In this document: positions 1 to 47,214 of the stretch, piece after piece
How positions within the stretch are numbered: the stretch's first letter is position 1
Layout of the letters: each line of letters opens with the position of its first letter
Origin: a virus
Reading direction: 5' to 3' (one strand)
Virus record (IMG/VR): IMGVR_UViG_3300036766_000117
Span: 1-47,214 of that record
DNA length: 47,214 nucleotides
Notes under the pieces: generated by a model
Seen by the model: the letters and a program-made list of their open reading frames with translations, nothing else
Databases searched by the model: none
What the model was told of the DNA's origin: nothing
Made by a program: the position numbers and the translations under genes

Positions 1-1715
1 GGTGGGAAGACACACTTTTCTATCTTGAAGCCACAATGAGTGATTCCGATGCCGGGGGGACAGTCTATATTGACCTTTGGGATGATACTGCAAACGCATC
101 AGTTACCAGCTCTGAATTGACTGTTACTGGAGTAACCGTTACCAGAGTTCGTTCAGCAGCTTTGACTTTGGTTGATGGTCACGAATATTACATCCGGGTT
201 AAACATGCCAGCGCTTCTGGAACTTTATTTAGGGCTTCCCTTCTTTTCCTTACCGATGCTACCGCTTCGGCTGGTGCAAAGTTTGCCGACTATCGTTCTA
301 TTTACGGTCAGGACGGGTCATTCAATGGGGGAAGCGGAACAGAATTTAACATTCTTACTCAATATAACCCTGCTCTTTATGCTGGGGGAACTTTCGACTG
401 GTTCTGGGAGGCAACTGGGTCAAATGGAGCTGGAGCAGGAACGGGAGATTCAGACCTTTATGATACAACTGCCAATGCAATTCTTTCTACCCTTCGATGG
501 ACTTCGGCTACTTTCTCGGTCAAGATGGATTCCACGCTGGTCATGCCTGCGTCAACTTCAAGTATCTCTTATTGGTATTTATCGGCTGGCGGTGGAAATG
601 TAGGATTGATTGGGTCTGAATATGGGTATAGATTCTATCCGCCAGTTTTTCCAACCACGACCACAACTTCCAGCTCCACAAGCACGAGTACGAGTACCTC
701 GACCTCCAGTTCCACGAGCAGTAGCACTTCAAGTTCGTCAAGCTCGACCTCAAGTTCAACTTCGAGTTCAACAAGTTCTAGTACGAGTAGTTCTACTTCA
801 TCGAGTTCTAGCTCAACAAGTTCCAGTACCTCATCTTCAACTTCCAGTAGTACGAGTAGCTCAACTTCGTCTAGCTCTAGTTCGACCAGCAGTAGTACCT
901 CCAGTTCAACTAGCTCTAGCACGAGTTCTTCAACTTCAAGTTCCAGTAGCACAACTTCAAGTTCAACCAGCTCAAGTACGAGTACCTCAACTTCGAGTAG
1001 TACAAGTACGAGTTCCAGCAGTACCAGTTCCAGTTCGACCACAACTCATCACACCGATACGAGTAGCTCAACGACATCTTCGAGCAGCAGCTCAACCTCG
1101 ACCAGCACGAGTACGAGCAGTTCCAGTTCCAGTAGTTCTAGTTCCAGCAGTTCAACGACAACGGCATTTCATACAGCGACATCCAGTTCTACGACCTCAA
1201 GTTCTACAAGTACGAGTTCTTCAACTTCGTCTAGCACAAGCTCGTCCAGCTCCAGCTCATCCAGCTCTAGTTCAAGTAGTTCCAGTTCTTCAACTTCTAG
1301 TTCTACAAGTTCGAGCAGTAGTAGTACCAGTTCCTCAACTTCGAGTTCCAGTTCTTCGAGTTCAAGCACGAGTAGTTCAAGCTCAAGTAGTACATCTTCG
1401 AGCAGTAGTAGCTCGACCAGCTCGACCTCAAGCAATACCAGTTCTTCTAGCTCAAGCACAAGTTCTTCGAGTACGAGTACTAGCAGCTCAACTTCCAGCT
1501 CATCAAGCTCAAGCTCGACCAGTTCTTCTTCGACTACAACAAAAGCTCCTGATAGAAAAATGTCAGGAAATGTTCTTGATACTCCGCTTTGGGCTGATAC
1601 TTCCCAATCAGTTACAAAAGGAAATGTCTTAAATACTCCGCCATCAGGTGGTATTATAGAGACACCAACTATGGGTAATGTTGACGATGTTGACTATCAT
1701 GGAGACATCTACTAG
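1..1715 (+). CDS. Ser/Thr-rich tail fibre/adhesin, 5'-truncated
   Basis: The reading frame is open from the first complete codon (position 3), so the start lies outside the window; the ATG at 36 is internal. The first ~100 residues are the end of a beta-rich domain homologous to the last 290 bases of the window (same FYLEATMSDSD and LLFLTDATASAGAKFADYRS stretches). A second globular segment of about 115 residues follows, then a tract of about 296 codons made almost only of Ser and Thr (654-1542), and a ~57-residue C-terminus with repeated GNVL(D/N)TP motifs. It lies just upstream of tail adaptor/nozzle-like genes and is the partner or continuation of the large gene at 44669. I infer a virion fibre with a long, flexible, mucin-like spacer. 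The receptor-binding function is not visible. Confidence 0.7.
   Translation, partial: WEDTLFYLEATMSDSDAGGTVYIDLWDDTANASVTSSELTVTGVTVTRVRSAALTLVDGHEYYIRVKHASASGTLFRASLLFLTDATASAGAKFADYRSIYGQDGSFNGGSGTEFNILTQYNPALYAGGTFDWFWEATGSNGAGAGTGDSDLYDTTANAILSTLRWTSATFSVKMDSTLVMPASTSSISYWYLSAGGGNVGLIGSEYGYRFYPPVFPTTTTTSSSTSTSTSTSTSSSTSSSTSSSSSSTSSSTSSSTSSSTSSSTSSSSSSTSSSTSSSTSSSTSSSTSSSSSSTSSSTSSSTSSSTSSSTSSSSSTTSSSTSSSTSTSTSSSTSTSSSSTSSSSTTTHHTDTSSSTTSSSSSSTSTSTSTSSSSSSSSSSSSSTTTAFHTATSSSTTSSSTSTSSSTSSSTSSSSSSSSSSSSSSSSSSTSSSTSSSSSSTSSSTSSSSSSSSSTSSSSSSSTSSSSSSSTSSTSSNTSSSSSSTSSSSTSTSSSTSSSSSSSSTSSSSTTTKAPDRKMSGNVLDTPLWADTSQSVTKGNVLNTPPSGGIIETPTMGNVDDVDYHGDIY
654..1542 (+). repeat. Ser/Thr-only coding tract, ~296 codons
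   Basis: Nearly every codon encodes Ser or Thr. It is interrupted by two short punctuation segments rich in His/Ala (about 1040-1060 and 1160-1180) and one Asn. All six Ser codons and all four Thr codons are intermixed, so the protein is low complexity while the DNA has few long exact repeats. Confidence 0.9.
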
Positions 1716-12898: not shown

Positions 12899-12949
12899 AA
12901 TCTCTTTGCTTATCCCCAGAACACTGGCGACTGGGGACAAGCGAACAGA

Positions 12950-14780: not shown

Positions 14781-14782
14781 AT

Positions 14783-15124: not shown

Positions 15125-15126
15125 AA

Positions 15127-15339: not shown

Positions 15340-15601
15340 AATGCTTTTTAAGAGACTCTTTAATTTTTACTTTGGTTTCGTCATCCCACTTGAGACCTGC
15401 GTTCCAGGGCGTTGCACCTTTGCGGGAGTTAGAAATCTTTTTCTTTGTCTCCTCGCTCCAGGCTTTCCCTTTGTTCCACGGAACTGGCATCATACCGACT
15501 TTGCCTTTGTTCCACGGCTCTTTCCCTTTTAGAGATTCCCCAATCTTCGCTTTGATTTCGGGACTCCATTTCTTTCCTTTATTCCAAGAAGTTCTACTCA
15601 T
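15290..15601 (-). CDS. NUMOD3-repeat protein without nuclease domain
   Basis: 103 aa. Four WN(K/A)G-type units follow one another (TSWNKGKKWSPEIKAKI, EPWNKGKVG, VPWNKGKAWSEETKKKI, TPWNAGLKWDDETKVKI), the signature of NUMOD3 DNA-binding modules normally attached to GIY-YIG or HNH homing endonucleases. No nuclease domain is present in this gene or overlapping it. It may be a remnant of a homing endonuclease or a stand-alone DNA-binding protein. ATGA overlap with the exonuclease gene. Confidence 0.75.
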   Translation of the reverse strand: MSRTSWNKGKKWSPEIKAKIGESLKGKEPWNKGKVGMMPVPWNKGKAWSEETKKKISNSRKGATPWNAGLKWDDETKVKIKESLKKHYEQRKALVSGKANQDQ

Positions 15602-16365
15602 GCTTGCACACCTCCCCCCTGTTTTACTTTGTATGCTTCGTCTTTCATTTTGCGTAGTTTGCGGTAGAGAACCAGAGCTGCGTTGAAGGCCATGACATTC
15701 TCTTTATAATCATCCCGCTCTTTAATCTCAATGGTTGCGTCTTTTCCAATTCTTACAATAACTGACCCGTTGATTTCTTGGTCGGGAAATTCCTCTCGGT
15801 ATGCCTGCTCGTAGGCTGCAACCTGCAACCAATACTCATCCCAGATACCAGTCGAGGTCTTGAAGTCTCCGAGCTTAACTACTCCGTCAATCTCGGCCAT
15901 GAAGTCCAGAGTCCCTGCGTATCCCCACCTCTTTGAGTAAACCAACTTCTCACTTTCAAGGAACTTAACCTTATGTTCTTTCTGCCATTCTAGGAATTTG
16001 TCAGTAGCATTCTTCATCATTACATTGACGGGAGTGGCGGGCTTCTTACCTGCAATCCATTCTTCAAGCCACTGATGTATCATCGTTCCGATGTCGGCAG
16101 CTTCTCCAGATTTTTTCTTGTGAATAATTTTTGCATCGGCAAGCATGTTCTTAATCTCAACCTCATCAAGTCCAACTCCTGGTTTAAGAGTTTTACTGAT
16201 ATGCTCAAGGCACATGTTGACTGCCCAGTACATGAGAGCTGGCTTGTTGATGACTCCAAGAACTGTGGTAACACCATCAACTTGCAGTCCTCCGACTGTG
16301 TAAAGATGTTTGTCTTCTTGAAAGACTAGCTCGACCTCTCCGTTGTAAAGTAAATGTTTGTCCAT
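15598..16365 (-). CDS. RecB/Cas4-like PD-(D/E)XK exonuclease
   Basis: 255 aa. Diagnostic order: GTMIH (His97), GTLDFMAE with Asp154, GDFKTS with Asp167 and Lys169, and QVAAYEQAY from 181. This is the RecB-family nuclease motif set (PDDEXK_1) found in phage exonucleases that resect double-stranded ends for recombination. No Cys cluster is visible, so an iron-sulphur site like Cas4 is unlikely. Its operon contains an ssDNA-binding-like protein, giving a likely recombination pair. Confidence 0.75.
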   Translation of the reverse strand: MDKHLLYNGEVELVFQEDKHLYTVGGLQVDGVTTVLGVINKPALMYWAVNMCLEHISKTLKPGVGLDEVEIKNMLADAKIIHKKKSGEAADIGTMIHQWLEEWIAGKKPATPVNVMMKNATDKFLEWQKEHKVKFLESEKLVYSKRWGYAGTLDFMAEIDGVVKLGDFKTSTGIWDEYWLQVAAYEQAYREEFPDQEINGSVIVRIGKDATIEIKERDDYKENVMAFNAALVLYRKLRKMKDEAYKVKQGGGVQA

Positions 16366-16366
16366 A

Positions 16367-16543
16367 TTATTGTGTTGTTTCTATTGAGACAACTGACTCG
16401 TAAGGAATTTCAAAGACCTTGCCAGTGTCATCGGTAACTGATAAGTAAAACTTAACTGGTATTTGATTCATCAACTCGCATCGTCTGTCAATTTTTATTG
16501 CGATAATTTTATCTCCATTGATTAGCTTTATAATTTGTTTCAT
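16367..16543 (-). CDS. 58-aa protein, unknown
   Basis: 58 aa. Starts with a TAATG overlap on the previous gene and stops just before the exonuclease. It reads MKQIIKLINGDKIIAIKID, a beta-rich small domain with KFYLSVTDDTGKVFEIPY, like short SH3-like or antitoxin-sized phage proteins. The tight packing supports it as real. Confidence 0.6.
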   Translation of the reverse strand: MKQIIKLINGDKIIAIKIDRRCELMNQIPVKFYLSVTDDTGKVFEIPYESVVSIETTQ

Positions 16544-16839
16544 TAGTTCTTGACTCCCTTCTTAAAATCGTGAGGCAGTATGATTTCAGCTTTGGGTGGT
16601 TCGGTTTTATGATTGGCTTCTTGTGCTTTGCGTTCTTCTTCCATAAGAGATTTGATTTGGTAGGGAATAGTGTTGATAATCTCGGCCATGATTTTTTTAC
16701 TGCCAGCAAACCCCATGCCATGCTCAAGCTCGGACTTACCCATGTCGAACTTACCAACGAATATCATTAGTGCGTCAGCTTCCATGTCAAAGAAGTCTGT
16801 CTTGTCTGTTAAGTTTTCTACATGTATTGTGTATCTCAT
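16543..16839 (-). CDS. Conserved small protein, unknown
   Basis: 98 aa. The N-terminal half (YTIHVENLTDKTDFFDMEADALMIFVGKFD) is beta/alpha; the C-terminal half is helical and charged (SLMEEERKAQEANHKTE). Its ATG is in an ATGA overlap with the 31-aa membrane microprotein. No family recognised. Confidence 0.55.
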   Translation of the reverse strand: MRYTIHVENLTDKTDFFDMEADALMIFVGKFDMGKSELEHGMGFAGSKKIMAEIINTIPYQIKSLMEEERKAQEANHKTEPPKAEIILPHDFKKGVKN

Positions 16840-16931
16840 ATTATTATTTGAATCAAAGCTGCTATGCTAACTGCTGCCATAGTAATTAAAAATCTTCTAG
16901 TAAAATCCCAGTCAATGTCAGTCTTCGTCAT
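16836..16931 (-). CDS. 31-aa membrane microprotein
   Basis: The frame starts at 16931 (overlapping the end of the upstream gene by 14 bp) and its TGA overlaps the next ATG as ATGA. The peptide has a polar start (MTKTDIDWDFTRR) and a single hydrophobic segment (FLITMAAVSIAALIQIII). Exact coupling to both neighbours argues for translation. A membrane-acting early peptide is the simplest guess. Confidence 0.5.
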   Translation of the reverse strand: MTKTDIDWDFTRRFLITMAAVSIAALIQIII

Positions 16932-17289
16932 ATAAGTAATTGCAATTGGAACACCTGGTTTCCCAACTTGGAATTTCAGGGTCGTTGTTGCCGTAAGTAA
17001 TCACTGTGCCTCCGCACCAGATGCAGCATTGCTGCTTCTGATACTGTGTTTCCAGTGCCCCGTTCAATCTGAACCCCCGCTCCATTAAAGTATTCCATAG
17101 AATTTCAGCAAGTCTGTCTCGGTACACATCAGGATGCAACTCACCTTCGGGCATACGCATTTGCGTTTCAGGAATGAACAGGTCAATGAGTGCAAGTTTG
17201 TCCCCGAACTCCACCTTTTTATTGCTTAAAATCAGATAGGCTTGATTCAGTGGTTTGGGCTGGGCTTTCTGTACTGGGTTCTTGGCCAT
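16918..17289 (-). CDS. Zinc-ribbon protein, unknown
   Basis: 123 aa from the ATG at 17289, which has a GAAAGGAGGAAC site; a 175-aa reading from 17445 would lie inside the upstream gene. The C-terminus carries CIWCGGT and CSNCNYLYDED, a four-Cys zinc ribbon. The middle (DVYRDRLAEILWNTLMERGFRLNG) is helical. Typical of small phage nucleic-acid-binding or regulatory proteins. Confidence 0.6.
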   Translation of the reverse strand: MAKNPVQKAQPKPLNQAYLILSNKKVEFGDKLALIDLFIPETQMRMPEGELHPDVYRDRLAEILWNTLMERGFRLNGALETQYQKQQCCIWCGGTVITYGNNDPEIPSWETRCSNCNYLYDED

Positions 17290-31121: not shown

Positions 31122-32039
31122 ATGGCAGCACAAAGACCAAATTTTGCAGATACACTAGCACCAGAACTGGCGGAAGTATTTTTCGACAGATACGAAGCAG
31201 AGCCAGAAATGATGCCATCCTTGTTCAAGGTCAAAACAACTGACCGAGATAAGGAAACCGAATCCGCAGTAAGTGGATTCTCTCTCTTAATTCAAACAGC
31301 AGAACTTGGGCCACTTGATTATGAAGACCCGAACCAAATGTATAGGACGACCTATACTCCTTTGAAATACACCAAAGGATTCAAAGTTTCCCAGGAATTA
31401 GTTGAAGATGACCAGCACAATGTTATTCGGGCAATGCCTGAAGCACTTGGAAAAGCAGCTAAAAGAACTCAAGAGTTCTATGCAGCTTCGGTATTCAACA
31501 ACGGATTCACTGCTGCAAACACTTCTTACGGAGACGCAAAACCATTATTCTCTACCCTTCATCCGAGGGCAGATGGTGGAACAGCTCAATCCAATGCCAG
31601 CTCAACTGGTATCACCTTAACTGAAACTAATCTTGAAACAGCCAGAATTGCCTTCCGCAAGTTCTTGGATGACAAAGGAATGCGGTTCATGTCTAATCCA
31701 AACTGCTTACTTACACCAGTTGACCTTGAGAAAACAGCAATGATTCTTTCAAAGTCCACAATGAGACCTGGAACTGCCAATAACGACTACAACATTTATG
31801 CAGGAATGTTCGATGTCAAGGTCTGGGAGTATCTTACATCTCAAACAGCATGGTTCTTGCTCGACATGAGGAATCATTTAATCTCCTGGTACTGGAGAAT
31901 CCGACCAGAGTTCAAACAGGATAACGCATTTGATACAGATGCAGCTCTCTATAAGACTCGTGTAAGATTCAGCTTCGGCTGGAGCGACTGGAGAGGAACA
32001 TTCGGGTCAGCAGGAGACGGACAAGCATACGCACTATAA
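31122..32039 (+). CDS. Major capsid protein (HK97-like, gpT-type)
   Basis: 305 aa. The series SGFSLLIQTAELGPLDYEDPNQMYRTTYTPLKYTKGFKVSQELVEDD, RTQEFYAASVFNNGF, DAKPLFSTLHP and a C-terminal FDTDAALYKTRVRFSFGWSDWRG resembles HK97-fold capsid proteins of Mu gpT-like phages. Length, N-arm and E-loop-like segment fit. It is the last gene before a strong terminator, so its transcript stops there. Confidence 0.8.
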   Translation: MAAQRPNFADTLAPELAEVFFDRYEAEPEMMPSLFKVKTTDRDKETESAVSGFSLLIQTAELGPLDYEDPNQMYRTTYTPLKYTKGFKVSQELVEDDQHNVIRAMPEALGKAAKRTQEFYAASVFNNGFTAANTSYGDAKPLFSTLHPRADGGTAQSNASSTGITLTETNLETARIAFRKFLDDKGMRFMSNPNCLLTPVDLEKTAMILSKSTMRPGTANNDYNIYAGMFDVKVWEYLTSQTAWFLLDMRNHLISWYWRIRPEFKQDNAFDTDAALYKTRVRFSFGWSDWRGTFGSAGDGQAYAL

Positions 32040-32793: not shown

Positions 32794-33237
32794 ATGAGTG
32801 TAACAAGTTTTGGTGATAATAGCCTAGATGCAATTGCGGGACGCATTCCCGTTGTATCAACTAAGCCAACTACCCCTGCTGGATATTACGGAGCAGGAGC
32901 AGTCGGTTATGATGAATGGCGTGGTGGAGAACCAATCTATCTTTCAACTGACAATAAACTTTACATTCAGCAAAGCACTTCTGGAGTTGCTGCGACTTGG
33001 AAGAAATTAGATTCAGCTTTTTCAACTTCGACTACCAGCTCGTCAACTTCCAGTTCAAGTTCAACTAGCTCTAGTTCAAGTTCTAGCAGTTCCACTTCCA
33101 GTAGTTCAAGTAGCTCTAGTTCGAGTTCAACCAGCTCTACAAGCTCTAGCACAAGTTCGACATCAACAAGTTCGAGTACATCAAGTTCGTCATCCAGTAG
33201 TTCCAGCTCAAGTAGCTCGACTACAACGATGCCTTAA
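32794..33237 (+). CDS. Ser/Thr-tailed virion protein, paralogue 1
   Basis: 147 aa. Residues 1-75 form a small beta domain: AIAGRIPVVSTKPTTPAGYYGAG, YDEWRGGEPIYLSTDNKLYIQQSTSGVAATWKK. The remaining ~70 residues are Ser/Thr only, ending TTTMP. Two neighbours (33243, 33566) share the beta domain (W-GGE, YIQ-TSG-TWK) with shorter or no tails. The pattern suggests a decoration or fibre protein with variable-length mucin-like tails. The tail is a plausible O-glycosylation target. Confidence 0.7.
   Translation: MSVTSFGDNSLDAIAGRIPVVSTKPTTPAGYYGAGAVGYDEWRGGEPIYLSTDNKLYIQQSTSGVAATWKKLDSAFSTSTTSSSTSSSSSTSSSSSSSSSTSSSSSSSSSSSTSSTSSSTSSTSTSSSTSSSSSSSSSSSSSTTTMP
33022..33228 (+). repeat. Ser/Thr-only coding tract, ~69 codons
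   Basis: Uninterrupted Ser and Thr codons, with mixed synonymous codons, at the end of the gene at 32794. Confidence 0.9.
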
Positions 33238-33242
33238 AATAT

Positions 33243-33554
33243 ATGAGCACATACAGTAATTTAGACGCAATAACAGGAAGACTCAAAGTTGTAACAGGCA
33301 ACCCTCTAACTCTCGTGGATTACTACGGAGCAGACGGGATGGTTGACCTTGACCATTGGATTGGTGGAGAAGTTGTATATAACAGTTCTGATAGTAGGAT
33401 TTATATTCAAACAGCAACATCAGGTGTAACTCCTACCTGGAAAAGAACTGGGAACAAAAATACATTCGCAACTAGCACATCGAGTTCGACAAGCACAAGT
33501 TCGTCAACATCGAGTTCGTCAACATCGAGTAGTTCAACTACTACGATGCCGTAA
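33243..33554 (+). CDS. Ser/Thr-tailed virion protein, paralogue 2
   Basis: 103 aa. The same globular domain as paralogue 1 (AITGRLKVVTGNPLTLVDYYGADG, HWIGGEVVYNSSDSRIYIQTATSGVTPTWKR), then a short ~25-codon Ser/Thr tail ending TTTMP. It lies 5 bp after paralogue 1. This looks like tandem duplication followed by tail-length change. Role as for paralogue 1. Confidence 0.7.
   Translation: MSTYSNLDAITGRLKVVTGNPLTLVDYYGADGMVDLDHWIGGEVVYNSSDSRIYIQTATSGVTPTWKRTGNKNTFATSTSSSTSTSSSTSSSSTSSSSTTTMP
33471..33545 (+). repeat. Ser/Thr-only coding tract, ~25 codons
   Basis: Short tail of the gene at 33243; includes the repeated unit TCATCGAGTTCG-like (STSSS) twice. Confidence 0.85.
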
Positions 33555-36327: not shown

Positions 36328-37761
36328 ATGAAAAAAATAGGTATTCTTACCACATTCGGTTCATGGGACGAAGCATACTCACCTTGTAATGTAGTCAAGC
36401 ATCACTTGCTTGCTCTCGTCAGATATGGATACACTCCCACTTTATTTGTTCTCGATTGTTTTCCAGAAGAATTTAAGATTGAAGGCGTTGATATTCAACG
36501 GGTACTTCCCACAATTAAGTTCGAACCCTACCAGGGAATCGTTCAGCACCACAATATCCCCAATGTTTTTGAAAAAGACATAGCAAGAATTGTGCCTGCA
36601 ATGGAACAGGCTTTCAAAGATTTCGATATTCTTCTTTGTCAGGATATTATTTTTCAGGATTCATTTCTTGCCTATAACGCATCTCTCCGTAAGATGGTCA
36701 TGCCCAAAGAACTCAAACTCTACCATTGGATGCACTCTGGCCCATCAAAAAGATTGGAGATGGGAGAACCAATGTCTTTTCTTTTTACTCTCCCGCCTCA
36801 ATCCAGACTCATTTATATGAATCGCTATGATGTGGTTCGGGCTGCTGAAATGTATGGAATCTATCCCAAAGATGTACGGGTGGTTCATAACCCTGTTGAT
36901 TATCGCTTACAGGAAGGAACTGACGATTTAACCGACAAAATAATTTCTCACTTCGGATGCAATGAAGCTGACATTACAGCCGTTTATCCTCTTTCAACTA
37001 CACGCATGGGGGCAGGTGGGAAGCAGCTTCATAAAGCAATCAAGGTTATGGCTGGTCTCAAAAAGCTGGGGAATAAAGTCCGTTTCATTGTTCCCAATGC
37101 TCATGCTAACGCAGCAAATGAAAAGACTGAAATTGAAAAGATGCGTAATTTTGCTAAAGAACAGGGACTTGACCCACGCTATGAACTTATTTTTACTTCT
37201 CTGATTGACCCGAAATGGGAGCACGGGATTCCTCACAATGTGGTAGTTCAACTGATTCGTTATTCAGATATATTTTTGTTTCCAACAGTATCGGAAAACT
37301 GTCCTTTGATTCTACTTGAAGCTGCACTTGGTAAAAATCTGATGGTTCTCAATGAAGATTTTTCACCACTTAAAGATTTTGTCGGGCCACATGCTCTCTA
37401 TTTCAAGTTTGATTCCGTTACTACAACGACCAATCACTCTGGATACCCAGATGGTGAAGATGGTTATTTCAGGGATTGTGCCAAGATTATCAATGCTGAA
37501 TTGCAGAGCAATAGGATTTATTTAGCTTATAAAGAAATTCGTAATAAGTTCAATATAGACTATATCTTCAAAAAGCAATTAGAACCTTTGTTCTATGAGA
37601 ACTGGGAAGAAGAAGTAAAAGCACCACAGGGAAATCCCGCACTTGGTATTCCCACAACTGGTGAGCTTAAACCAACAGACCAGGACATGTTAGAGCTTCC
37701 CCCTCAAGGGATGCCAGACATCCTAGAAGGGGAGGAGGGTTATGGAGTACCAGGAGAATGA
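36328..37761 (+). CDS. Glycosyltransferase, GT4-like (GT-B)
   Basis: 477 aa. N-terminal Rossmann-like half with LYHWMHSGPS and YMNRYDVVRAAEMYGI; C-terminal half with VRVVHNPVD, a GGKQLHKAI donor-binding segment (near 230-237), and FLFPTVSENCPLILLEAALG containing the E-x7-E pair (Glu323, Glu331). These are GT4-family retaining glycosyltransferase features. The last ~45 residues are an acidic, Pro-rich extension. It begins a nine-gene cluster with overlapping starts and stops; sugar and acceptor are unknown. Confidence 0.8.
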   Translation: MKKIGILTTFGSWDEAYSPCNVVKHHLLALVRYGYTPTLFVLDCFPEEFKIEGVDIQRVLPTIKFEPYQGIVQHHNIPNVFEKDIARIVPAMEQAFKDFDILLCQDIIFQDSFLAYNASLRKMVMPKELKLYHWMHSGPSKRLEMGEPMSFLFTLPPQSRLIYMNRYDVVRAAEMYGIYPKDVRVVHNPVDYRLQEGTDDLTDKIISHFGCNEADITAVYPLSTTRMGAGGKQLHKAIKVMAGLKKLGNKVRFIVPNAHANAANEKTEIEKMRNFAKEQGLDPRYELIFTSLIDPKWEHGIPHNVVVQLIRYSDIFLFPTVSENCPLILLEAALGKNLMVLNEDFSPLKDFVGPHALYFKFDSVTTTTNHSGYPDGEDGYFRDCAKIINAELQSNRIYLAYKEIRNKFNIDYIFKKQLEPLFYENWEEEVKAPQGNPALGIPTTGELKPTDQDMLELPPQGMPDILEGEEGYGVPGE

Positions 37762-38413
37762 AGAATTACACGACTTTCCAGAGTTTGATAAGGTCTATAA
37801 AAGATTTCAGGAGAAGGGGATTCTTAAAGACCCTACTCAAATCAGTCTTTACACGGCCATCTCAAATGTCTGGTGTGTCGGAAAAGCTGTACTCGATGCA
37901 GGGTGCGGTTTGGGTATCGGAACACATATCCTTGCCAGAGAAGCCCTGGGAGTTTGGGGACTTGATAACAACGCTGACACAATCAAAGTGGCCAAACTCT
38001 TATATGAAGGCCCACGCCTCAAATTTGAAGAAGTGGATTTACTTGAAGAACTCCCACGACCCTTTGCTACATTCGATATTGTTACCTGTATTGAAGTCAT
38101 TGAACATGTAAAAGATTATGAAAAAATTATTATTACTCTCAAAAAATTCCATGACCCTAAAAGACGGACTGTCTTTTTTATCTCATCTCCAAATCGAAAT
38201 TCCCAAAAACTTGGCCAGCAGAAACCGAATAATGAATACCATGTACGGGAATGGATGGCAGGTGAATTTTATCAGATTCTTACAAAGCACTTCGGAAGTG
38301 TTGTTCTTTACTCTGGTGAAAGAGTGGACACTTTTGCACAGGAGGAAACAGTTGATGGGAACACGGAGGAAACGCCTATCTTAGCAAAGTGTGAAGACCC
38401 AATTGCATTATGA
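37742..38413 (+). CDS. SAM methyltransferase (class I), cluster gene
   Basis: 223 aa, strong GGGGAGGAGGG site, overlapping the glycosyltransferase by 20 bp. Motif I AVLDAGCGLGIGTH at 49-62, then VWGLDNN, and FDIVTCIEVIEHV, typical of the small-molecule Methyltransf_11/23 group. Probably methylates a sugar or nucleotide-sugar intermediate. Two more methyltransferases lie in the same cluster. Confidence 0.8.
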   Translation: MEYQENEELHDFPEFDKVYKRFQEKGILKDPTQISLYTAISNVWCVGKAVLDAGCGLGIGTHILAREALGVWGLDNNADTIKVAKLLYEGPRLKFEEVDLLEELPRPFATFDIVTCIEVIEHVKDYEKIIITLKKFHDPKRRTVFFISSPNRNSQKLGQQKPNNEYHVREWMAGEFYQILTKHFGSVVLYSGERVDTFAQEETVDGNTEETPILAKCEDPIAL

Positions 38414-39345
38414 AAGAAGAAATTTTACTAATCGGTGAAGGATTTATAGGTTCAAAACTCGCAACAAGATTGACCGAGCTTGGTTATCAGGTGTCTATTG
38501 CTGACATAAAATATGGTCAGGATATTACTAATAAAGGGGTCATTGATGAGGTTATTCGAAAGTTCCCAGGACAGAAGATTATTCTCATGGCAGCTATTGC
38601 CAACCTCAATGACTTTGAAAAGAATCCAGAGCTGGGTATGGATGTGAATGTTTTGGGAGTTGTAAATGTTTCACTAGCTTGCCATGCGTACAAAAAGCGT
38701 CTTTATTACATTTCCACCTGTTGTGTCTATGGGAATACTCCCGACCTTCCCTCCACAGAACAGGCACGGCCAGAACCTTCAGAGGTGTATGCAGCAGCAA
38801 AGCTGGCAGGGGAGTGGATAATCAAAGGTTTGAACAAATCCTACGATATGGAATATGTGATTCTCCGCATTGCCACTTGCTACGGCCCAGGCATGAGGAA
38901 TGCTCTCGCACCTGCGGTTTTCATCAATCAGATTAAAAGGAATGAGCCTATCACAATTCACGGAGATGGGAAGCAAACCCGAACTCTTACTTACATTGAC
39001 GATGAGGTTGAAGGAATCGCTCAAGTTATTAAGTCTGATGTGGTCAACGATACTTTTAATATCTCTACCGAAGAAGAAATTTCTGTTACTTATATGTCTT
39101 CCGTTATCCGTGAGGAAATGGGAGTGCCTGACCATCCAGTCGTAAAGATTGCAGACCGCAAGGGACAGACTTTTACGGAACAAATTTCTACAGGGAAGAT
39201 GCGGGATGTAAGAATCTGGAAAGGAAGATATGCTCCGAATCCCATGAAGGTAAATGGATTGGGGTGGGTAGCCAAGACTTCATTCAGGGAAGGAATTAGA
39301 AAAACCCTTGAATGGATGAAAGAGAATAACCTAGAAACCTTATGA
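38410..39345 (+). CDS. NAD-dependent epimerase/dehydratase (SDR)
   Basis: 311 aa. Rossmann motif IGEGFIGS (8-15), a Thr/Ser-rich strand YYISTCCVYGN, and Tyr127-x3-Lys131 in YAAAKLAGE, the extended-SDR catalytic pair. ATYGPGMR-like and EEISV/TRTLTYIDD segments match sugar-nucleotide epimerase/dehydratases. It probably makes a modified nucleotide sugar together with the next gene. ATGA overlaps on both sides. Confidence 0.8.
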   Translation: MKEEILLIGEGFIGSKLATRLTELGYQVSIADIKYGQDITNKGVIDEVIRKFPGQKIILMAAIANLNDFEKNPELGMDVNVLGVVNVSLACHAYKKRLYYISTCCVYGNTPDLPSTEQARPEPSEVYAAAKLAGEWIIKGLNKSYDMEYVILRIATCYGPGMRNALAPAVFINQIKRNEPITIHGDGKQTRTLTYIDDEVEGIAQVIKSDVVNDTFNISTEEEISVTYMSSVIREEMGVPDHPVVKIADRKGQTFTEQISTGKMRDVRIWKGRYAPNPMKVNGLGWVAKTSFREGIRKTLEWMKENNLETL

Positions 39346-40280
39346 AGATTTTAGTTACAGGCGGAGCAGGATTTATTGGTTCACATTTGGTGGACTCACT
39401 TATTGAGGACAAACATGAAGTTATTGTTATTGATAATCTTAGCACTGGCAGACGGGATAATCTCAATCCTAAAGCCGTTTTTCATCGTCTTGACATCTCC
39501 CGTGATGGAGGAAAAATTGAAAAACTCTTTAAGCGGGAACGATTCGATTATGTCTTCCACCTCGCAGCAATGGCCAGAATCAACGAGTGTCTTGACAAGC
39601 CCATCGAATCCTTCTCAATCAATACCTTAGCAACTTTGTTCCTGGTTCACATGGCCAGGGTTCATGGAGCAGCTTTTGTCTTTTCCTCAAGTTCATCAGT
39701 TTATGGGGAGATAGATAAAAGAGTTCCTGTTGTTGAGGAGACATTGCATAATCCGATTTCTCTTTATGGAGTTCATAAATCATCAGCCGAGAAATTGGTT
39801 TTGATGTACCATAAATTTTATAACACAAAGACTGCTGTTTTAAGATATTTTAATGTGTATGGAACTTCCCGCCAGAATCCAGAAGGGGCTTATCCGAATG
39901 TCTTTGCTGCTTTTGGTAGGGATTTTAGGAAGGGAGAAATAACTATTTATGGAGACGGAGACCAGGAAAGGGATTATATTCATGTTTTCGATGTAGTTAA
40001 AGCTAACAAAAGATTCTTACAAACCCAGCAATGTTGGGGGCAGGCTTTTAATATCGGGACAGGAGAACCTCACACAGTCAATGAAGTCGCAGACTACTTT
40101 GACTTTGGGGTGAAAAGAAATTACCAGCCTGCGAGAGTTGGAGACCCCCGCTTCTCATGTGCTGATACTCATAAAGCAGATATGAAACTCGGATTTAGGT
40201 CTGAAGTTCCGTTTAACAAAGGTGTTCAAATCTTTTTACAGTCGCTAAAAGAGTTCACATCTTTTTATAAGAAAGGATAA
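39342..40280 (+). CDS. UDP-glucose/GlcNAc 4-epimerase-like (GalE family)
   Basis: 312 aa. GGAGFIGS (7-14), IDNLSTG (30-36), VFSSSSSVYGE near 113-123, Tyr142-x3-Lys146 in YGVHK, LRYFNVYG and GDGDQERDYIHV: the set of GalE/WbpP-type 4-epimerases, which interconvert UDP-Glc/UDP-Gal or UDP-GlcNAc/UDP-GalNAc. Which substrate cannot be told from sequence alone. In this cluster it is the likely source of a galacto-type donor for the GT27-like enzyme. Confidence 0.85.
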   Translation: MKILVTGGAGFIGSHLVDSLIEDKHEVIVIDNLSTGRRDNLNPKAVFHRLDISRDGGKIEKLFKRERFDYVFHLAAMARINECLDKPIESFSINTLATLFLVHMARVHGAAFVFSSSSSVYGEIDKRVPVVEETLHNPISLYGVHKSSAEKLVLMYHKFYNTKTAVLRYFNVYGTSRQNPEGAYPNVFAAFGRDFRKGEITIYGDGDQERDYIHVFDVVKANKRFLQTQQCWGQAFNIGTGEPHTVNEVADYFDFGVKRNYQPARVGDPRFSCADTHKADMKLGFRSEVPFNKGVQIFLQSLKEFTSFYKKG

Positions 40281-40282
40281 TT

Positions 40283-41272
40283 ATGGAACAAGATGATTTA
40301 TACTTAATTGCAGAGTTGGAGGACAAGACCCTCCAGACTGTCTATGAATATGTACGGAACAATGTACCACGGCCTTTTGGTCTCCTTCTTTCTGGTGGGT
40401 TTGATAGCGGTTTACTTGCTGCTGTTACGAAACCTGACTTTGTTTTCACTGTCCGTTTTCCATACGGGATTCAATACGATGAGAGTCGTTATGCTGATGC
40501 TGTTATTGACCATCTTGGTTTGCGTAGCAAGACTGTTATTTTAGAACCTCGTAAAGAAGACTTTGAACGGGATGCTGCGGATGCAATCAAAGTTATCGGT
40601 GAACCAGTAACCCACTTTTCAATCGTTCCCTTTTACATGGTCATGCGACTGGCTGCTGAAAGAATGCAGGAGAAGGGGTTGACTCCGCATGTTTTGTCAG
40701 GAGAAGGGCCAGATGAATACCTCGGTGGGTATGCCAGACAGATTATCTTTGATGAATTTTACAAACTATATAGAATCCCAGAACTTAGAAATTATCACGA
40801 GACGATTGATAGGGTGCTTACAAAAGATAGCAGTTATACCGAGGAGCATTTAGTTCATCTTTATGGAGAAATGATGGGTTATCCTCTTGAAAAAATTAAA
40901 GATTACGCATCAATGTTTAAGCTCCCCCTTCAAGGCAGAATCGGTAAAATGGATATGGAACTTGGGGTTATTGAGAAATTTGAACAAAAGCTCGCTAAAG
41001 CTGCGGGAGTAAACTTACATTATCCTTACATTAACGAGGAATACGCACAGTATTGTTATGCCCTGCCAGATAATTTGAAGATTCGGGGTGGCGTAACTAA
41101 GTGGGCATTCAGACAGATATGTAAGAAATACTTACCTGGATTTATGATGGACAGAGCTAAGATGGGTGGCCCAGTTGCACCTATCAATACTTGGTTAGGT
41201 AAACCAGAATTGGGGTTTGGTAAGTCAGCTTGGTTGGATTACCAAAACAAAATACTAAATGAAAACAAATGA
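40283..41272 (+). CDS. Asparagine-synthase-like amidotransferase, no glutaminase domain
   Basis: 329 aa. ATP-pyrophosphatase loop LSGGFDSG (36-43), then a conserved VLSGEGPDEYLGGY near 145-158: the synthase domain of the AsnB family. The N-terminal glutaminase domain with its Cys2 is missing, so ammonia must come from elsewhere or the enzyme uses another amine. Similar stand-alone proteins occur in surface-sugar gene clusters, where they amidate sugar acids; that fits here. Confidence 0.75.
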   Translation: MEQDDLYLIAELEDKTLQTVYEYVRNNVPRPFGLLLSGGFDSGLLAAVTKPDFVFTVRFPYGIQYDESRYADAVIDHLGLRSKTVILEPRKEDFERDAADAIKVIGEPVTHFSIVPFYMVMRLAAERMQEKGLTPHVLSGEGPDEYLGGYARQIIFDEFYKLYRIPELRNYHETIDRVLTKDSSYTEEHLVHLYGEMMGYPLEKIKDYASMFKLPLQGRIGKMDMELGVIEKFEQKLAKAAGVNLHYPYINEEYAQYCYALPDNLKIRGGVTKWAFRQICKKYLPGFMMDRAKMGGPVAPINTWLGKPELGFGKSAWLDYQNKILNENK

Positions 41273-41978
41273 AAGATATACTAGCATCGTTATTGCTTCG
41301 TATATTGCAGACGAGCTTCGAGCAAAGATGTTTCGCACTTCGCTTGACTCCTTGTTAGCAACTACGGAGAATCTTCCTGTTGAAATTATTGTTGTAGATA
41401 ATGGTGGGGATTTACACATTTCTGGCTATCTTGATGGTTTGCTTCTTGGTGGTGCAATTCAGTGCGTAATTCACAATGCCAACAATATGCACTTCGGATT
41501 TGCCCGTAATCAAGGACTGGCGATGGCAAAAGGAAATTACATTTGTATAGCTGATAATGATATTTATTATGAGGATGGCTGGTTGGAAGACAGTTTGGAC
41601 TTTCTTGAAAAATATCCAGAGGAAAAGGTTTATGCAAGTTTTATTGATTATCCAATGGGGGGACTTACGGAAAGATACCATCAGGGCGTACTTGGTGATG
41701 CTAAATTAAGTATGAGGGCAGGAAGTAATTGTTGGGTAATGAGAAAACGGGATTTTGATATTTTAGGGGGCTTTGAAAACCATCGGGTTGCTGGCACAAG
41801 GTGGACTGATAATGCCGTGAGAAATGGTTATCTTTGTGCAGTTCTACCAGGACAGAAAACAAGGGATTTAGGACTTCGGCAAGGATATGACCATACAAAA
41901 TCACTTCCCGTGAAAAGAACCTTACGCAATGGAGAGGAGGTGTACTTCAACCAAGATGAGTTTGAGATACCCAGTTAG
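41259..41978 (+). CDS. Glycosyltransferase, GT2-like (GT-A)
   Basis: 239 aa. TSIVIASYIADEL start, VDNGGD at 47-52 and Asp99-Asn100-Asp101 (IADNDIYY), the GT-A metal/nucleotide-sugar motif. The rest contains WVMRKRDFDILGGFENH, a common GT2 acceptor-side pattern. Likely transfers a second sugar. Overlaps its neighbours by 14 and about 23 bp. Confidence 0.8.
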   Translation: MKTNERYTSIVIASYIADELRAKMFRTSLDSLLATTENLPVEIIVVDNGGDLHISGYLDGLLLGGAIQCVIHNANNMHFGFARNQGLAMAKGNYICIADNDIYYEDGWLEDSLDFLEKYPEEKVYASFIDYPMGGLTERYHQGVLGDAKLSMRAGSNCWVMRKRDFDILGGFENHRVAGTRWTDNAVRNGYLCAVLPGQKTRDLGLRQGYDHTKSLPVKRTLRNGEEVYFNQDEFEIPS

Positions 41979-42519
41979 TCGAAAGTTTGCATCAAGTTGG
42001 CAACACCATGTGGTTAGGTATGCCTGGGCACTTCCTCATTGTTATCGGAGGAGTGTTCTTGAAACTGGTAGTCAGTATGGATGGGGAGCTTATCTTATTT
42101 CCTGGGTAGCCAATTCAGTTACTTTGACAGATATTAGTAAACCCTGGATGGAGTATGCCATGAAGCAGGTTTATCAATGTCCAGTAGAGTTCTTTCTCAA
42201 AGATTTCGAAAAGGAATTTGTTGTAGGGAAATGGGATACGATTGTTTGCTTTGAAACAATTGAGCATCTTGAAGACCCGAATTTCTTTTTGGAACAATGT
42301 TCTAAATCTATGACAGAGAAAGGAAGATTTCTCTTTTCTGTTCCTCACATGGTAGAAAACCATGAACACAAACAGGTTTATGATAAGAAAAAGATTTCTG
42401 CACTAATCTCTAAGTATTTTACGCTGGAAGATATTTTTGAGCAGACCAAAGAACCGATTACGGGAAACAATATGTACGGAGATTTGAAATGTTATGTAGG
42501 ATGGGCAACTAAAAAATGA
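41956..42519 (+). CDS. SAM methyltransferase (class I), cluster gene
   Basis: 187 aa from MSLRYPV at 41956; a reading from 41929 is nine codons longer. Motif I VLETGSQYGWGAYL, VTLTDIS, and DTIVCFETIEHL, a UbiE/Methyltransf_11-type. Motif I has Thr-Gly-Ser instead of the usual D-x-GxG, so binding may differ. Third methyltransferase of the region. Confidence 0.7.
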   Translation: MSLRYPVSRKFASSWQHHVVRYAWALPHCYRRSVLETGSQYGWGAYLISWVANSVTLTDISKPWMEYAMKQVYQCPVEFFLKDFEKEFVVGKWDTIVCFETIEHLEDPNFFLEQCSKSMTEKGRFLFSVPHMVENHEHKQVYDKKKISALISKYFTLEDIFEQTKEPITGNNMYGDLKCYVGWATKK

Positions 42520-43676
42520 GTGGAGTAACTTTTATCATATCAGCTCGAAACGAATACCCGCAGGTCGCAATGACTGTGGATAATCTTATGTTGGATTGCT
42601 GGCAGGCTGGAATCCATGACTGGGAAGTAATTATTGCCGACAACGGGTCAACGGATAATACCAGTAAGTTTTGGAAATATGCTTTTAAGAATCCTTATGC
42701 CAAACATGCCGACCACCAACTTCCTGAAGAACTCCAGTATTCCCCCCGTGGCATGGCAAATGAGGGAAGAATTAAATTTGTCTATGACCCAGTATTCTCA
42801 AATGTAGGAGCACGCCATCTGGCTGTTCAATATGCCAAGTACGAAAACATTATCTTTGCTGATGCTCACATTTCCTTGAAGCCTGGAACTGTTAAATATG
42901 TTCTTGAAACTCTGGATAAGTTCGGAGGAGTAGTTCATGCACCTGTTGCTTGGATGGGGGCTTCGGTTTATCATCCGCATCCTGGTATGCAATATACTTA
43001 CAAGATTGGTGAGAAGATTTGGGGTACTTGGAATTATGCCCAAACTGTGGGAGATGCACCTTTTTATATTCCTTTATCTGGTCATTGTTTTATTGCTGTT
43101 AAAAAGAAAGAATATATGGATTTCGGGGGATACGACACGCATCAACAGATTTATGGTGGGGGAGAAAACTATCTTGATACTCTCTATTGGTTGCTTGGCA
43201 GTAATGTTATGGTTGACCCACGGGGTCTGGTATTTCACCTTTCTGCTGGTAGGGGGTATTCATATAATCAGACTTCTTTGATTCACAACATGATTCTTAC
43301 TGCTTATACGCTGGGTGGGGAGAAATGGTCTGAACGAATTTTTCTTACTTACTTGGATAAGACGGGAACGGATATAAAAATGTTGAAAGAGATGTATGCC
43401 AAGACACTTGAAGAAGGTAAGGAAAAACGGGAGCTAATAGCTTCCCGACAGATAATGTCTCTTGAAGATTTGTTAGGAATTAACAGACCGAATGATTGTG
43501 ATGGGGCGGAATATAAGATGCAGGCCCATGCAAAAAGAATTTGGGATATTAAAAATGATGAATTGCATGGTCATCATATTTCCTTTGTAACTGTATTCGG
43601 GGATTGGATTGATAGGCTTAAAACTGAAGAAGCCAAAGATTTCTTTGTAAATAGTCTTTATCAAAAGGAGACATGA
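42516..43676 (+). CDS. GT27-like (polypeptide GalNAc-transferase-type) glycosyltransferase
   Basis: 386 aa. GT-A fold: VTFIISARNEYPQ, IIADNGSTDNT at 39-49, RHLAVQYAKYENIIFADAH with Asp116-x-His118 (DxH rather than DxD), then a FGGYDTHQQIYGGGENYLDT block at ~203-222 and His241 in LVFHLSAGRGY. DxH, (W/G)GGEN and a later His ligand in this order are the signature of polypeptide GalNAc-transferases, which start mucin-type O-glycans on Ser/Thr. Adjacent genes encode Ser/Thr-only virion tails. Substrate is inferred, not shown. Confidence 0.7.
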   Translation: MSGVTFIISARNEYPQVAMTVDNLMLDCWQAGIHDWEVIIADNGSTDNTSKFWKYAFKNPYAKHADHQLPEELQYSPRGMANEGRIKFVYDPVFSNVGARHLAVQYAKYENIIFADAHISLKPGTVKYVLETLDKFGGVVHAPVAWMGASVYHPHPGMQYTYKIGEKIWGTWNYAQTVGDAPFYIPLSGHCFIAVKKKEYMDFGGYDTHQQIYGGGENYLDTLYWLLGSNVMVDPRGLVFHLSAGRGYSYNQTSLIHNMILTAYTLGGEKWSERIFLTYLDKTGTDIKMLKEMYAKTLEEGKEKRELIASRQIMSLEDLLGINRPNDCDGAEYKMQAHAKRIWDIKNDELHGHHISFVTVFGDWIDRLKTEEAKDFFVNSLYQKET

Positions 43677-43993
43677 TGTGGACATTAGAAAAGAAGCAAA
43701 AATATAATCGGGAATATAGAATTAGAAATAAAATTATTCTAAATAAGAAGCGTAAAGAGTGGACTTTGAAACGCAGAATTGCAATTATAAAGAAATTTGG
43801 AGGTAAGTGTAAAAGGTGTGGTTTTGACGACCCAAGAGCATTACAAATTGACCATGTTAATAATGGTGGTCATAAAGAATATAAAAAAATGTCAGAGTTT
43901 AGATACTACAAAATGGTTCTTGAAGATACTTCTGGGAAATATCAGATTCTATGTGCTAATTGTAATTGGATTAAACGATATGAAAAATCTTAA
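43673..43993 (+). CDS. HNH endonuclease, small
   Basis: 106 aa, ATGA overlap with the previous gene. Very basic N-terminus (KKQKYNREYRIRNKIILNKKRK), then KCKRCGFDDPRALQIDHVNNGGHKEYK and ILCANCNWIKRYEKS: Cys-x2-Cys, Asp-His, Cys-x2-Cys of the zinc-bound HNH fold. It may be a homing endonuclease. Second of two HNH genes bracketing the fibre and glycan cluster. Confidence 0.8.
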   Translation: MMWTLEKKQKYNREYRIRNKIILNKKRKEWTLKRRIAIIKKFGGKCKRCGFDDPRALQIDHVNNGGHKEYKKMSEFRYYKMVLEDTSGKYQILCANCNWIKRYEKS

Positions 43994-44668: not shown

Positions 44669-47214
44669 ATGGCAAGACTGTGGTCATCAGGTATTGAATT
44701 ACAATCAGTAACGGCAGGTGTTGAGTTTGACACTATTGTCGGTTCTCCAACAATTGCTACCGATATAAAACGAAGCGGTTTAGCTTCACTCCGAACAAAT
44801 CCCACGGCTGCTGCTCATTATGTCAGTAAAGAAATCCAGGCTAATGGTGGAACAAATTATGTTTTCGTCAGAGTTTGGGTTTACATAGCGACTGCTCCTT
44901 CTGCTGATACCACTATCATAAATCTACCAGAGACCACTACATTATTCGGTGATGGTGCGTCTATTATTTTGACTACTGGTCGTCAACTTCAGTTTTTTGA
45001 TGAAAGTGGGTCTGCACAAATTGGTTCAAATAGTGCAACCATTCCTCTAAATGAATGGCACATGATTGAGATTCAGGTGGCGACTGACGGAGACTCTCTT
45101 TTTGCCAGATTAGATGGTATTCAATTTGCTACCGATGTTGGGATGTCTGGTATTGTTGCTTCCCCTCAAACTCTTTTCGTAGGAGTTCTTGATGCAACTA
45201 CGGCTGACCTCTATTTTGATGATATTGCTGTCAACAACGCTTCTGCGGGAGGAGACCAAACTTCATTCCCAGGTAGAGGAAAAATTGTCCATTTGCACCC
45301 AAGTGGAACGGGAGATAACAATACTGCACTGCGAGGGGGAGCTGATAGTGGTGCTAATTGGAGTCAAATAAATGACATAACTCCAAATGATGCGACTGCC
45401 TACATGATTATTGAAGCAACCAATGACACTGTTGATGTTTTGGTTGAATCACCCACAGTTGCGAGTCTTGATATTTCAGACCAAATAAAATTGGTTCAGA
45501 TTGGAGCTAGGTGGACAGGAGCAACTTCTGGGTCGCAGATTATAAATTTAAGAGTTAAGTCTGCTCCAGGTGGGACGACTACTGAAACAGCCAATATAAC
45601 TATGGCTTCTGCTTCTTGGTGGACTAACGATGATACTGCACCAAGAAATTATAAATTAACATCATATACCGACCCAACCACAGGAAATGTTTGGAAAGTC
45701 TATGGCCCTAATTCGTTGGATAATATGCAAATTGGTGCTAGGGCAAGTGATGCTGTTCCTGACAATTGGATTACTGCTATCTGGGCATTGGTAGAGTATC
45801 TTCCAGTAGGTTTTTCAGCTATTGGCAGACCTTTCCACCCAGGAAAAGGCCCGTCAAATATAGGAAGATTTTTTCAAACCAGAAAGGATATGCAGGCTTT
45901 AGCACCTGTATTCCCTACCACAACTACCAGCACTAGCACTTCAACTTCAACGAGTTCTAGTACCAGTTCCTCAACCTCCAGTTCTACGAGTACCAGCACT
46001 AGCACTTCGAGTTCTACAAGTACCAGTTCGAGCAGTAGCTCGACAACAACTCAATCGGGAACAACTGCTCACACCGCCACCAGTAGTTCAACAACTTCCA
46101 GCTCAACTTCAAGTTCTTCAAGTACAAGTTCTTCGACTTCCAGTAGTTCAAGTACAAGTTCCTCAACCTCAAGTAGCACAAGTTCTAGCAGTTCTTCAAC
46201 TTCGAGTAGCACGAGTTCTAGCACTAGCAGTTCGACTTCCAGTAGTACCAGTTCAAGTACCTCGTCAACCTCAAGTTCTACGAGTTCTAGCACTAGTACC
46301 TCGACTTCGACTTCCAGCAGTTCGAGCAGTTCGTCCACATCTTCTTCGTCCACGACTTCTGCTATGCCTACCGAGCTTGGTGGGGATACAGAGTTTGAAC
46401 GCTATTGGGATTTAATGAATGAGGCAAACGGGAACTCCTCAAGAAATTCTAATATCACCAGTGCTACGGCAGTTGAAACAAATGGAAGACTGATTGGATT
46501 TGATAAGGGAGATTTCAACGGAGCTACTGTTCAGGTCTTCTTTGAAGTTGTAGGTTCAATCGCTAATTCTGCTCAAACAGGTTCTTTCGAACTTTATGAT
46601 GTAACTAATGCAGCCATCATAGCCACTGTTACTGTTACTGGCTCTACTGCTATGCAGAGAGTCCGCTCTGCGGATTTACTTTCTTCCCTGGCTGCTGGCC
46701 TTGTTGAATATACAGTTCGTGCCTATAACTCTGATGGTGCAACTGTTGCTAAAATCTTCACGGCCCGTTTAATTGTTCTTCAAATTAACGCAGGAGGAGT
46801 AGATAAGACTGCGGGAGATTTCATTCTATCAAGTAGGGGAACGATTTTTTCCACCAGTTATACAACTCAATCACAGTTCCAATATGGCGGGTCATTTATC
46901 TACCACTCTGCTTGGTGGGAGAACACTCTTTTCTATCTTGAAGCCACAATGAGTGATTCTGACCCTGCGGGTACAGTCTTTATTGACCTTTGGGATGATA
47001 CTGCAAACGCATCGGTTTCTGGTTCTGAACTTTCTGTTGTTGGAACTACTGTTACCAGGGTTCGTTCAGCAGCATTAACGCTGACCGATGGAAACGAATA
47101 CTATATTCGGGTTAAGCATGTCAGTGCTTCTGGAACTTTATTTAGAGCTGCCCTTCTTTTCCTTACCGATGCCACCGCTTCGGCTGGTGCAAAGTTTGCT
47201 GACTATCGTTCTAT
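44669..47214 (+). CDS. Large Ser/Thr-rich tail fibre, 3'-truncated
   Basis: The frame is open from 44669 to the window end, at least 848 codons. Residues ~1-195 are a lectin/LamG-like domain (MARLWSSGIELQSVTAGVEF, WHMIEIQVATDGDSLFARLDGIQF, LYFDDIAVNN). A second beta domain follows to ~415, then a ~148-codon Ser/Thr tract. After it come at least two related beta-sandwich repeats (around 46550-46790 and 46920-47200); the second is homologous to the start of the window. Infers a long fibre or adhesin with lectin-type binding and mucin-like spacers. Confidence 0.75.
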   Translation, partial: MARLWSSGIELQSVTAGVEFDTIVGSPTIATDIKRSGLASLRTNPTAAAHYVSKEIQANGGTNYVFVRVWVYIATAPSADTTIINLPETTTLFGDGASIILTTGRQLQFFDESGSAQIGSNSATIPLNEWHMIEIQVATDGDSLFARLDGIQFATDVGMSGIVASPQTLFVGVLDATTADLYFDDIAVNNASAGGDQTSFPGRGKIVHLHPSGTGDNNTALRGGADSGANWSQINDITPNDATAYMIIEATNDTVDVLVESPTVASLDISDQIKLVQIGARWTGATSGSQIINLRVKSAPGGTTTETANITMASASWWTNDDTAPRNYKLTSYTDPTTGNVWKVYGPNSLDNMQIGARASDAVPDNWITAIWALVEYLPVGFSAIGRPFHPGKGPSNIGRFFQTRKDMQALAPVFPTTTTSTSTSTSTSSSTSSSTSSSTSTSTSTSSSTSTSSSSSSTTTQSGTTAHTATSSSTTSSSTSSSSSTSSSTSSSSSTSSSTSSSTSSSSSSTSSSTSSSTSSSTSSSTSSSTSSTSSSTSSSTSTSTSTSSSSSSSSTSSSSTTSAMPTELGGDTEFERYWDLMNEANGNSSRNSNITSATAVETNGRLIGFDKGDFNGATVQVFFEVVGSIANSAQTGSFELYDVTNAAIIATVTVTGSTAMQRVRSADLLSSLAAGLVEYTVRAYNSDGATVAKIFTARLIVLQINAGGVDKTAGDFILSSRGTIFSTSYTTQSQFQYGGSFIYHSAWWENTLFYLEATMSDSDPAGTVFIDLWDDTANASVSGSELSVVGTTVTRVRSAALTLTDGNEYYIRVKHVSASGTLFRAALLFLTDATASAGAKFADYRS
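45917..46360 (+). repeat. Ser/Thr-only coding tract, ~148 codons
   Basis: Ser/Thr codons broken once by QSGTTAHTA (about 46049-46075). The tract ends TTSAMP, close to the TTTMP endings of the shorter tails at 33228 and 33545. Confidence 0.9.
46925..47214 (+). repeat. Fibre domain homologous to window positions 14-303
   Basis: The last 290 bases match positions 14-303 with many synonymous differences (roughly four fifths identical by eye); the shared segments TTTCTATCTTGAAGCCACAA and GACTATCGTTCTAT bracket the match. They encode the same beta domain twice. The copies are too different for an assembly overlap, so this is a repeated fibre domain. Confidence 0.75.

Follow-up and report, generated by a model that had tools for sequence, protein, structure and literature searches.

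The GT4 enzymes GtfA and GtfB start the glycosylation of serine-rich repeat proteins (SRRPs). Gram-positive bacteria have glycosyltransferase clusters that go with Ser-rich acceptors (PMC6973325), and the glycosyltransferases of mycobacteriophages (Che8 gp110, Corndog gp38 and Myrna) glycosylate capsid and tail proteins and provide shielding from antibodies (PMC12363180). Virion glycosylation is already known in a few phages. Among the GT-A glycosyltransferases, the DxD motif is replaced by DxH in the families GT27 and GT60, both of which act on Ser and Thr of polypeptides, and a C-terminal His binds the metal in GT27 (PMC7185993).

Here we describe a locus in an uncultivated virus that encodes an enzyme of the DxH type close to several proteins with tracts composed of Ser and Thr only. 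The window, which is the whole stretch of DNA analysed, is the linear IMG/VR record IMGVR_UViG_3300036766_000117 of 47,214 bases; a closed circle was rejected because the ends show no overlap. Its genes include those for a terminase, a portal protein, a capsid protein, an SU10-type adaptor and a LysM endolysin-like protein, a gene set from which the host is probably a bacterium.

As in the SRRP loci, a Ser/Thr-rich candidate acceptor is encoded near a GT4-type transferase and further glycosyltransferases, and glycosylation would likewise be intracellular. The SRRP acceptor is a cell-wall adhesin, whereas that of the phage would belong to the virion; the phage GT4 enzyme is not recognisably GtfA or GtfB, and its partners include a DxH GT-A enzyme and methyltransferases. 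The mycobacteriophages also encode their own glycosyltransferases, acting there on capsid and tail proteins, whereas neither a DxH family nor mucin-like tracts are mentioned for them in the description consulted (PMC12363180). Here, a GT27-like enzyme, a GT4-like enzyme and a methyltransferase are found repeatedly together with mucin-like tracts in uncultivated phages, and we found no description of Ser/Thr-tract phages with DxH-type enzymes in open-licence full text.

Table 1. Features of the window discussed in the text.
Feature	Position	Strand	Remark
Protein with Ser/Thr tract of about 300 aa (642-1553)	36..1715	+	upstream of SU10-type adaptor gene (1739-2962)
Major capsid protein	31122..32039	+	
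Short protein ending in a Ser/Thr tail (tract 33007-33234)	32794..33237	+	follows capsid gene; putative decoration protein
Another short protein ending in a Ser/Thr tail (tract 33456-33551)	33243..33554	+	downstream of capsid gene
GT4-like (GT-B) glycosyltransferase	36328..37761	+	homologues in each of the nine strong DxH contigs; rival initiator candidate
SAM methyltransferase	37742..38413	+	homologues between GT4 and DxH glycosyltransferase genes in many relatives
NAD-dependent epimerase/dehydratase, nucleotide-sugar type	38410..39345	+	Pfam
Second NAD-dependent epimerase/dehydratase, nucleotide-sugar type	39342..40280	+	Pfam
Asparagine-synthase-like amidotransferase	40283..41272	+	recurrent in island
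DxD GT2-type glycosyltransferase (internal comparison enzyme)	41259..41978	+	DND
Second methyltransferase	41929..42519	+	Pfam
DxH GT-A glycosyltransferase, 386 aa	42516..43676	+	ORF, Pfam, profile, fold
Codons of D116-A117-H118 (DxH motif)	42861..42869	+	D and H invariant; aligns with DSH/DCH/DAH of GT27
Codons of Y213-GGG-E217-N218	43152..43169	+	E217 at Asn (xED-Asp) column of WGGEN
Codon of H241	43236..43238	+	aligned with metal-binding C-terminal His of GT27
Virion-type protein with Ser/Thr tract 45905-46375	44669..47212	+	phrog_14065 N-terminal region; runs off window

The DxH enzyme and its relation to GT27

The preliminary description had proposed that Asp116-x-His118, a Gly-rich block at residues 204-218 and His241 follow the motif order of the polypeptide GalNAc-transferases, and that the neighbour at 41259 is of the more common DxD type. 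Both observations were confirmed: in the translation of ORF 42516-43676, FADAHI contains D116-A117-H118, residues 204-218 read GGYDTHQQIYGGGEN and include E217, and H241 sits within VFHLSAGRGY, while the neighbour does carry an Asp-x-Asp motif. Homologues of the DxH enzyme were found first in three viral contigs and then in seven. Among cultured phages the sole match was a distant homologue (25% identity, DNH motif) encoded by Tunturiibacter phage Tunturi_4. Two scans of genome contigs for close bacterial relatives, with an insensitive method, gave none or generic GT2 matches.

Across the 11 aligned members, whose identity ranges from 22 to 51%, no columns are invariant other than E37, P92, D116, H118, G215, P235 and H241, which include the predicted metal-site motifs. 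The D-x-H motif is present in every strong member found later by searches independent of the enzyme, and the later His in all of these whose sequence reaches that far; background GT2-type matches in the same contigs are DxD or motif-less. The invariance of these columns, and their recurrence in the later members, argue that the motif set did not arise by chance. A second, weaker DxH subfamily (DCH/DSH ... FGGEEGYIHKK) was seen in other Ser/Thr-tract contigs (L418, L419, L430 and L431), with the later His in the three longer copies. In one relative (contig L009, IMGVR_UViG_3300020200_002993, 9095-10000) the DxH glycosyltransferase gene carries an in-frame insert of about 302 codons whose ends resemble those of an intein; the insert starts with CVDEKTEVLTMDGW, has WVTPDHRC, shows a weak LAGLIDADG match and ends in VSVTGQ before a Thr, and its insertion site is the conserved GEKIWG/TWN motif.

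Pfam places the protein under Glycos_transf_2 (PF00535, GT2-like superfamily) as its sole match, at 41.8 bits against a gathering cut-off of 23.3, and 11 of 11 members match this family. When searched against PDB chains, a five-member profile ranked ppGalNAc-T9, T10, T4 and T7 first (from 8e-9), and the 11-member profile placed the GT27 enzyme T4 at the top (3e-20, across the catalytic domain), ahead of the next family and second-best kind of match, K4 chondroitin polymerase (1e-13). An AlphaFold2 model built from nine phage sequences (pLDDT 76.5, pTM 0.80) was compared with the PDB by Foldseek, and all 50 matches listed were GT27 chains rather than unrelated GT2 families (best 5e-16; TM-scores of 0.5-0.6 relative to the query). 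The DxD neighbour, put through the same profile and fold steps, served as a control: its profile favors chondroitin and heparosan synthases, with GT27 at just 4e-6 over the N-terminal part, and its fold matches, obtained with a shorter and less confident model (pLDDT 66), are a mixture of TarP, a Leptospira glycosyltransferase, SpsA, TarS and GalNAc-Ts at 3e-9 and weaker. The idea that any phage GT-A model would match GT27 was rejected on the basis of this control.

In an ungapped profile alignment, the spacing Y213-W225-G228-P235-H241 equals the GT27 spacing from the WGGEN Trp to the metal His, with a Gly-rich block ahead of the helix, and H241 falls in the GT27 His column, which by alignment makes it a candidate third metal ligand. 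The same alignment pairs E217 with the WGGEN Asn and G216 with the WGGEN Glu. Given the equal Tyr213-to-His spacing, E217 is one residue off the GT27 Glu, and the earlier likening of GGGEN to WGGEN has to be corrected by one residue in register relative to the helix Trp. Other GT-A families have their inverting base (xED-Asp) at this Asn column. Neither WGGEN nor the DxD of GT2 was found: the members read YGGGE(N/P/V/F), or YAGEE in the Tunturi type, which carries Glu at both columns, and the DxH enzyme has DAH.

Compared with GT27 (human T2, T4 and T10), the phage enzyme thus shares a predicted GT-A fold, the DxH motif and the later His, and GT27 is its top PDB match by profile as well as by fold. 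It differs in its low identity (14-18%, over the model), the one-residue shift, and the lack of a type II membrane anchor and of the ricin-type C-terminal lectin domain (386 aa, no Pfam lectin match); it is also viral and presumably cytoplasmic. GT60 (polypeptide alpha-GlcNAc-transferases, PF11397) likewise has DxH for DxD and Ser/Thr of a polypeptide as acceptor (PMC7185993), whereas membership in GT60 was rejected because PF11397 matched none of the 11 phage members; a separate genome search with PF11397, run without a positive control, is uninformative alone. GT2-CHS, with K4 chondroitin polymerase, and GT7 fall in the same clade of GT-A families (PMC7185993); unlike the phage enzyme they have DxD, and they are inverting and act on glycans. 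The profiles and the predicted fold support a relationship to GT27, so that the suggestion of a viral relative of the mucin-initiating family stands as regards kinship; we refer to the enzyme as a GT27/GT60-like relative rather than as a member of GT27.

Ser/Thr-only tracts and their association with the enzyme

Four proteins encoded in the window have Ser/Thr-only tracts, ranging from 32 to about 300 aa (Table 1). The family phrog_14065, which is represented in one of these, is a "minor tail protein" of Streptomyces phages, in which its gene stands between those for the capsid and the adaptor. In every tract Ser is encoded by TCN as well as by AGY codons, and almost the full set of Thr codons is used. 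The presence of both Ser codon classes in each tract indicates that the amino acids are kept rather than a DNA repeat, and an origin as simple DNA repeats was rejected on these grounds. A programmed frameshift that adds the tails to an upstream protein was also rejected, since each tail ORF inspected starts at an ATG of its own.

Of the seven further contigs with the enzyme that were read over all or almost all of their length, six have Ser/Thr tracts. The DxH-bearing contigs G001, G002, G004, G007, G062 and G078 encode two to several such proteins each, with tracts of up to 1,574 aa, and G003, a DxH-bearing fragment of 13 kb, is without a tract. The DNA patterns for Ser/Thr tracts gave no match in G005, G006 and Tunturi_4. 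Tunturi_4 and its IMG/VR relative combine a DNH enzyme with the lack of a tract match, so that Ser/Thr tracts cannot be the acceptor of every member of the family.

Contig L293 (IMGVR_UViG_3300002460_002255) has, at 12303-17123, an ORF of about 1,607 codons that is almost all Ser/Thr, with a tract of 1,574 aa, and also encodes two DPH-type glycosyltransferases. Tiny proteins in L287 (13510-13785), L446, L284, L435 and L439 consist of an N-terminus of 10-15 aa, often MAEF...TW, and then a Ser/Thr tail to the stop codon, and may be coat peptides. Linkers of the PTTTTTSSSTSTST type are widespread in proteins of uncultivated phages that are without the GT4/DxH island.

The association was examined in contigs of about 16 kb or more, searched with the DxH family profile. 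One set was chosen by DNA patterns for Ser/Thr tracts alone (n = 104) and a random set by an arbitrary 14-mer (n = 47; a 16-base pattern had matched no contigs). A match was considered strong at E < 1e-50, with the addition of the G078 member, which scored 1e-31 with the first profile and 5e-96 with a profile that included it. Strong homologues were present in 9 of the 104 Ser/Thr contigs, one of which (G004) had itself contributed to the first profile, and in none of the 47 random contigs. They are concentrated in contigs with long mixed tracts: where a tract reaches 140 aa or more, 7 of 12 contigs have one, against 2 of 92 other Ser/Thr contigs (p = 1e-6) or 2 of 139 others when the random contigs are included (p = 9e-8), where the 140-aa cut-off was set after the data were seen, p stays at or below 1e-3 for every cut-off between 40 and 180 aa, and the contigs are not independent but represent about five lineages by a rough estimate. 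Most Ser/Thr-tract phages are without the DxH enzyme, which suggests that short Ser/Thr linkers are a broader phenomenon, and most carriers are without the GT4 enzyme too.

Conserved partner genes

The DxH gene closes an island in which Pfam recognizes a GT4-like enzyme, a methyltransferase, two epimerases, an amidotransferase, a DxD GT2 and a second methyltransferase. Directly behind it, at 43673-43993, lies a small HNH/endonuclease VII-like gene, possibly a mobile insertion. UDP-sugar 6-dehydrogenase genes occur near the island in L001 (21-854) and L002 (125-823) along with an asparagine-synthase-like gene, a combination that points to a uronamide as one of the sugars of the glycan.

Homologues of the GT4 protein of the window (27-47% identity) are present in every long-tract or DxH contig that was closely read, except the fragment G003, and also in long-tract contigs that have no DxH enzyme (G097, G110 and G130). 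A GT4 profile matched 13 of 100 Ser/Thr contigs and none of the 47 random contigs, with matches in all nine strong DxH contigs against 4 of 91 other Ser/Thr contigs (p = 4e-10); 11 of the 13 had members in the profile, these having first been found by plain tblastn with the window protein. Ten of the 12 long-tract contigs have the GT4 gene, and the two without are fragments of 17 and 25 kb. The window protein had no match among 50,697 cultured-phage records. One GT4 match (G108:27568-28821) has a single in-frame TGA.

Several contigs with unlike capsid and portal genes share the gene order Ser/Thr-tail gene, GT4, methyltransferase and DxH glycosyltransferase, and in L413 the DxH glycosyltransferase is fused to a methyltransferase domain. 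Similarity to the terminase, portal and capsid genes of the window is strong just in G001, G002, G007 and G110, and weak or absent elsewhere; these dissimilar genes indicate that the island spans several phage lineages.

A putative O-glycosylation island

We favor the hypothesis that the locus is a phage O-glycosylation island, which we consider probable, in which the glycosyltransferases act on the Ser/Thr tracts of the phage's own capsid- and tail-associated proteins to give a mucin-like virion coat. The epimerases and the amidotransferase would make or modify NDP-sugars, and the GT4-like and DxH enzymes, with the DxD GT2, would transfer sugars to the Ser/Thr-only tracts in the host cytoplasm, the DxH enzyme working as a GT-A enzyme with a predicted metal site of the GT27/GT60 type (DxH...His). 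The glycan may then be extended and capped by the methyltransferases, and the mucin-like sugar coat could serve for shielding or adhesion. The analyses show the relationship in fold and motifs, the association with long tracts and the conserved partner genes; we infer the tracts as acceptors, the cytoplasmic setting and the placement of the tract proteins in the virion, and likewise the donor sugar, the order of the steps and the benefit.

Two readings divide this island explanation by the order of the steps and are not alternatives to it, and as initiator of the glycan the DxH and GT4 enzymes stand about evenly, the wider spread of GT4 slightly favoring the latter and the ancestry of the DxH enzyme favoring a GT27-like start. 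One tentative but plausible reading is that the first sugar is placed on Ser/Thr by the GT4-like enzyme, in the manner of GtfA and GtfB, and the second or a later one by the DxH enzyme. GT4 genes accompany long tracts more widely than the DxH gene does, and there is a precedent in SRRP glycosylation, whereas the kinship of the family to GT4 is distant and the weak matches of its profile in the PDB are BshA-type enzymes, with no GtfA or GtfB chain among them. It is also possible, with somewhat more hesitation, that the DxH enzyme initiates polypeptide O-glycosylation as a functional equivalent of the ppGalNAc-Ts, with GT4 extending the glycan or using other sites. Both DxH families, GT27 and GT60, glycosylate polypeptide Ser/Thr (PMC7185993), the predicted fold is GT27-like, and in G001 the DxH gene is directly upstream of a Ser/Thr-tract gene. 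Against a DxH start, any glycosylation in the three long-tract phages that have GT4 without the DxH enzyme would begin without it, and E217 occupies an inverting-type base column.

A quite unlikely alternative is that the enzyme alters a host surface polysaccharide or another glycan, for receptor change or superinfection exclusion, with the tracts as bare linkers: clusters of sugar-nucleotide, glycosyltransferase and methyltransferase genes are also typical of surface-polysaccharide loci, the DxH protein falls under Glycos_transf_2 alone in Pfam and many Ser/Thr-tract phages are without the island, but this would leave both the enrichment with tract length and the proximity of Ser/Thr-tail and GT4 genes without a reason, and a general Pfam reading of the island genes noted no flippase or polymerase gene.

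Returning to the O-glycosylation island, its most far-reaching form is that uncultivated phages of several lineages possess a prokaryotic equivalent of the mucin-type O-glycosylation of animals, in which a GT27-related enzyme starts O-glycans directly on Ser/Thr-only tracts of up to about 1,500 residues in virion proteins, forming a mucin-like coat and possibly representing a prokaryotic or viral root of GT27/GT60. We regard this full version as rather doubtful. If the island hypothesis is confirmed, the system may offer a tool for the production of mucin-type glycoproteins in bacteria. Phages would then be makers of mucin-like coats, with consequences for adsorption, immune shielding and phage-mucus biology, and a small GT27-like enzyme would be at hand to study the origin of the DxH polypeptide transferases from DxD, inverting ancestors.
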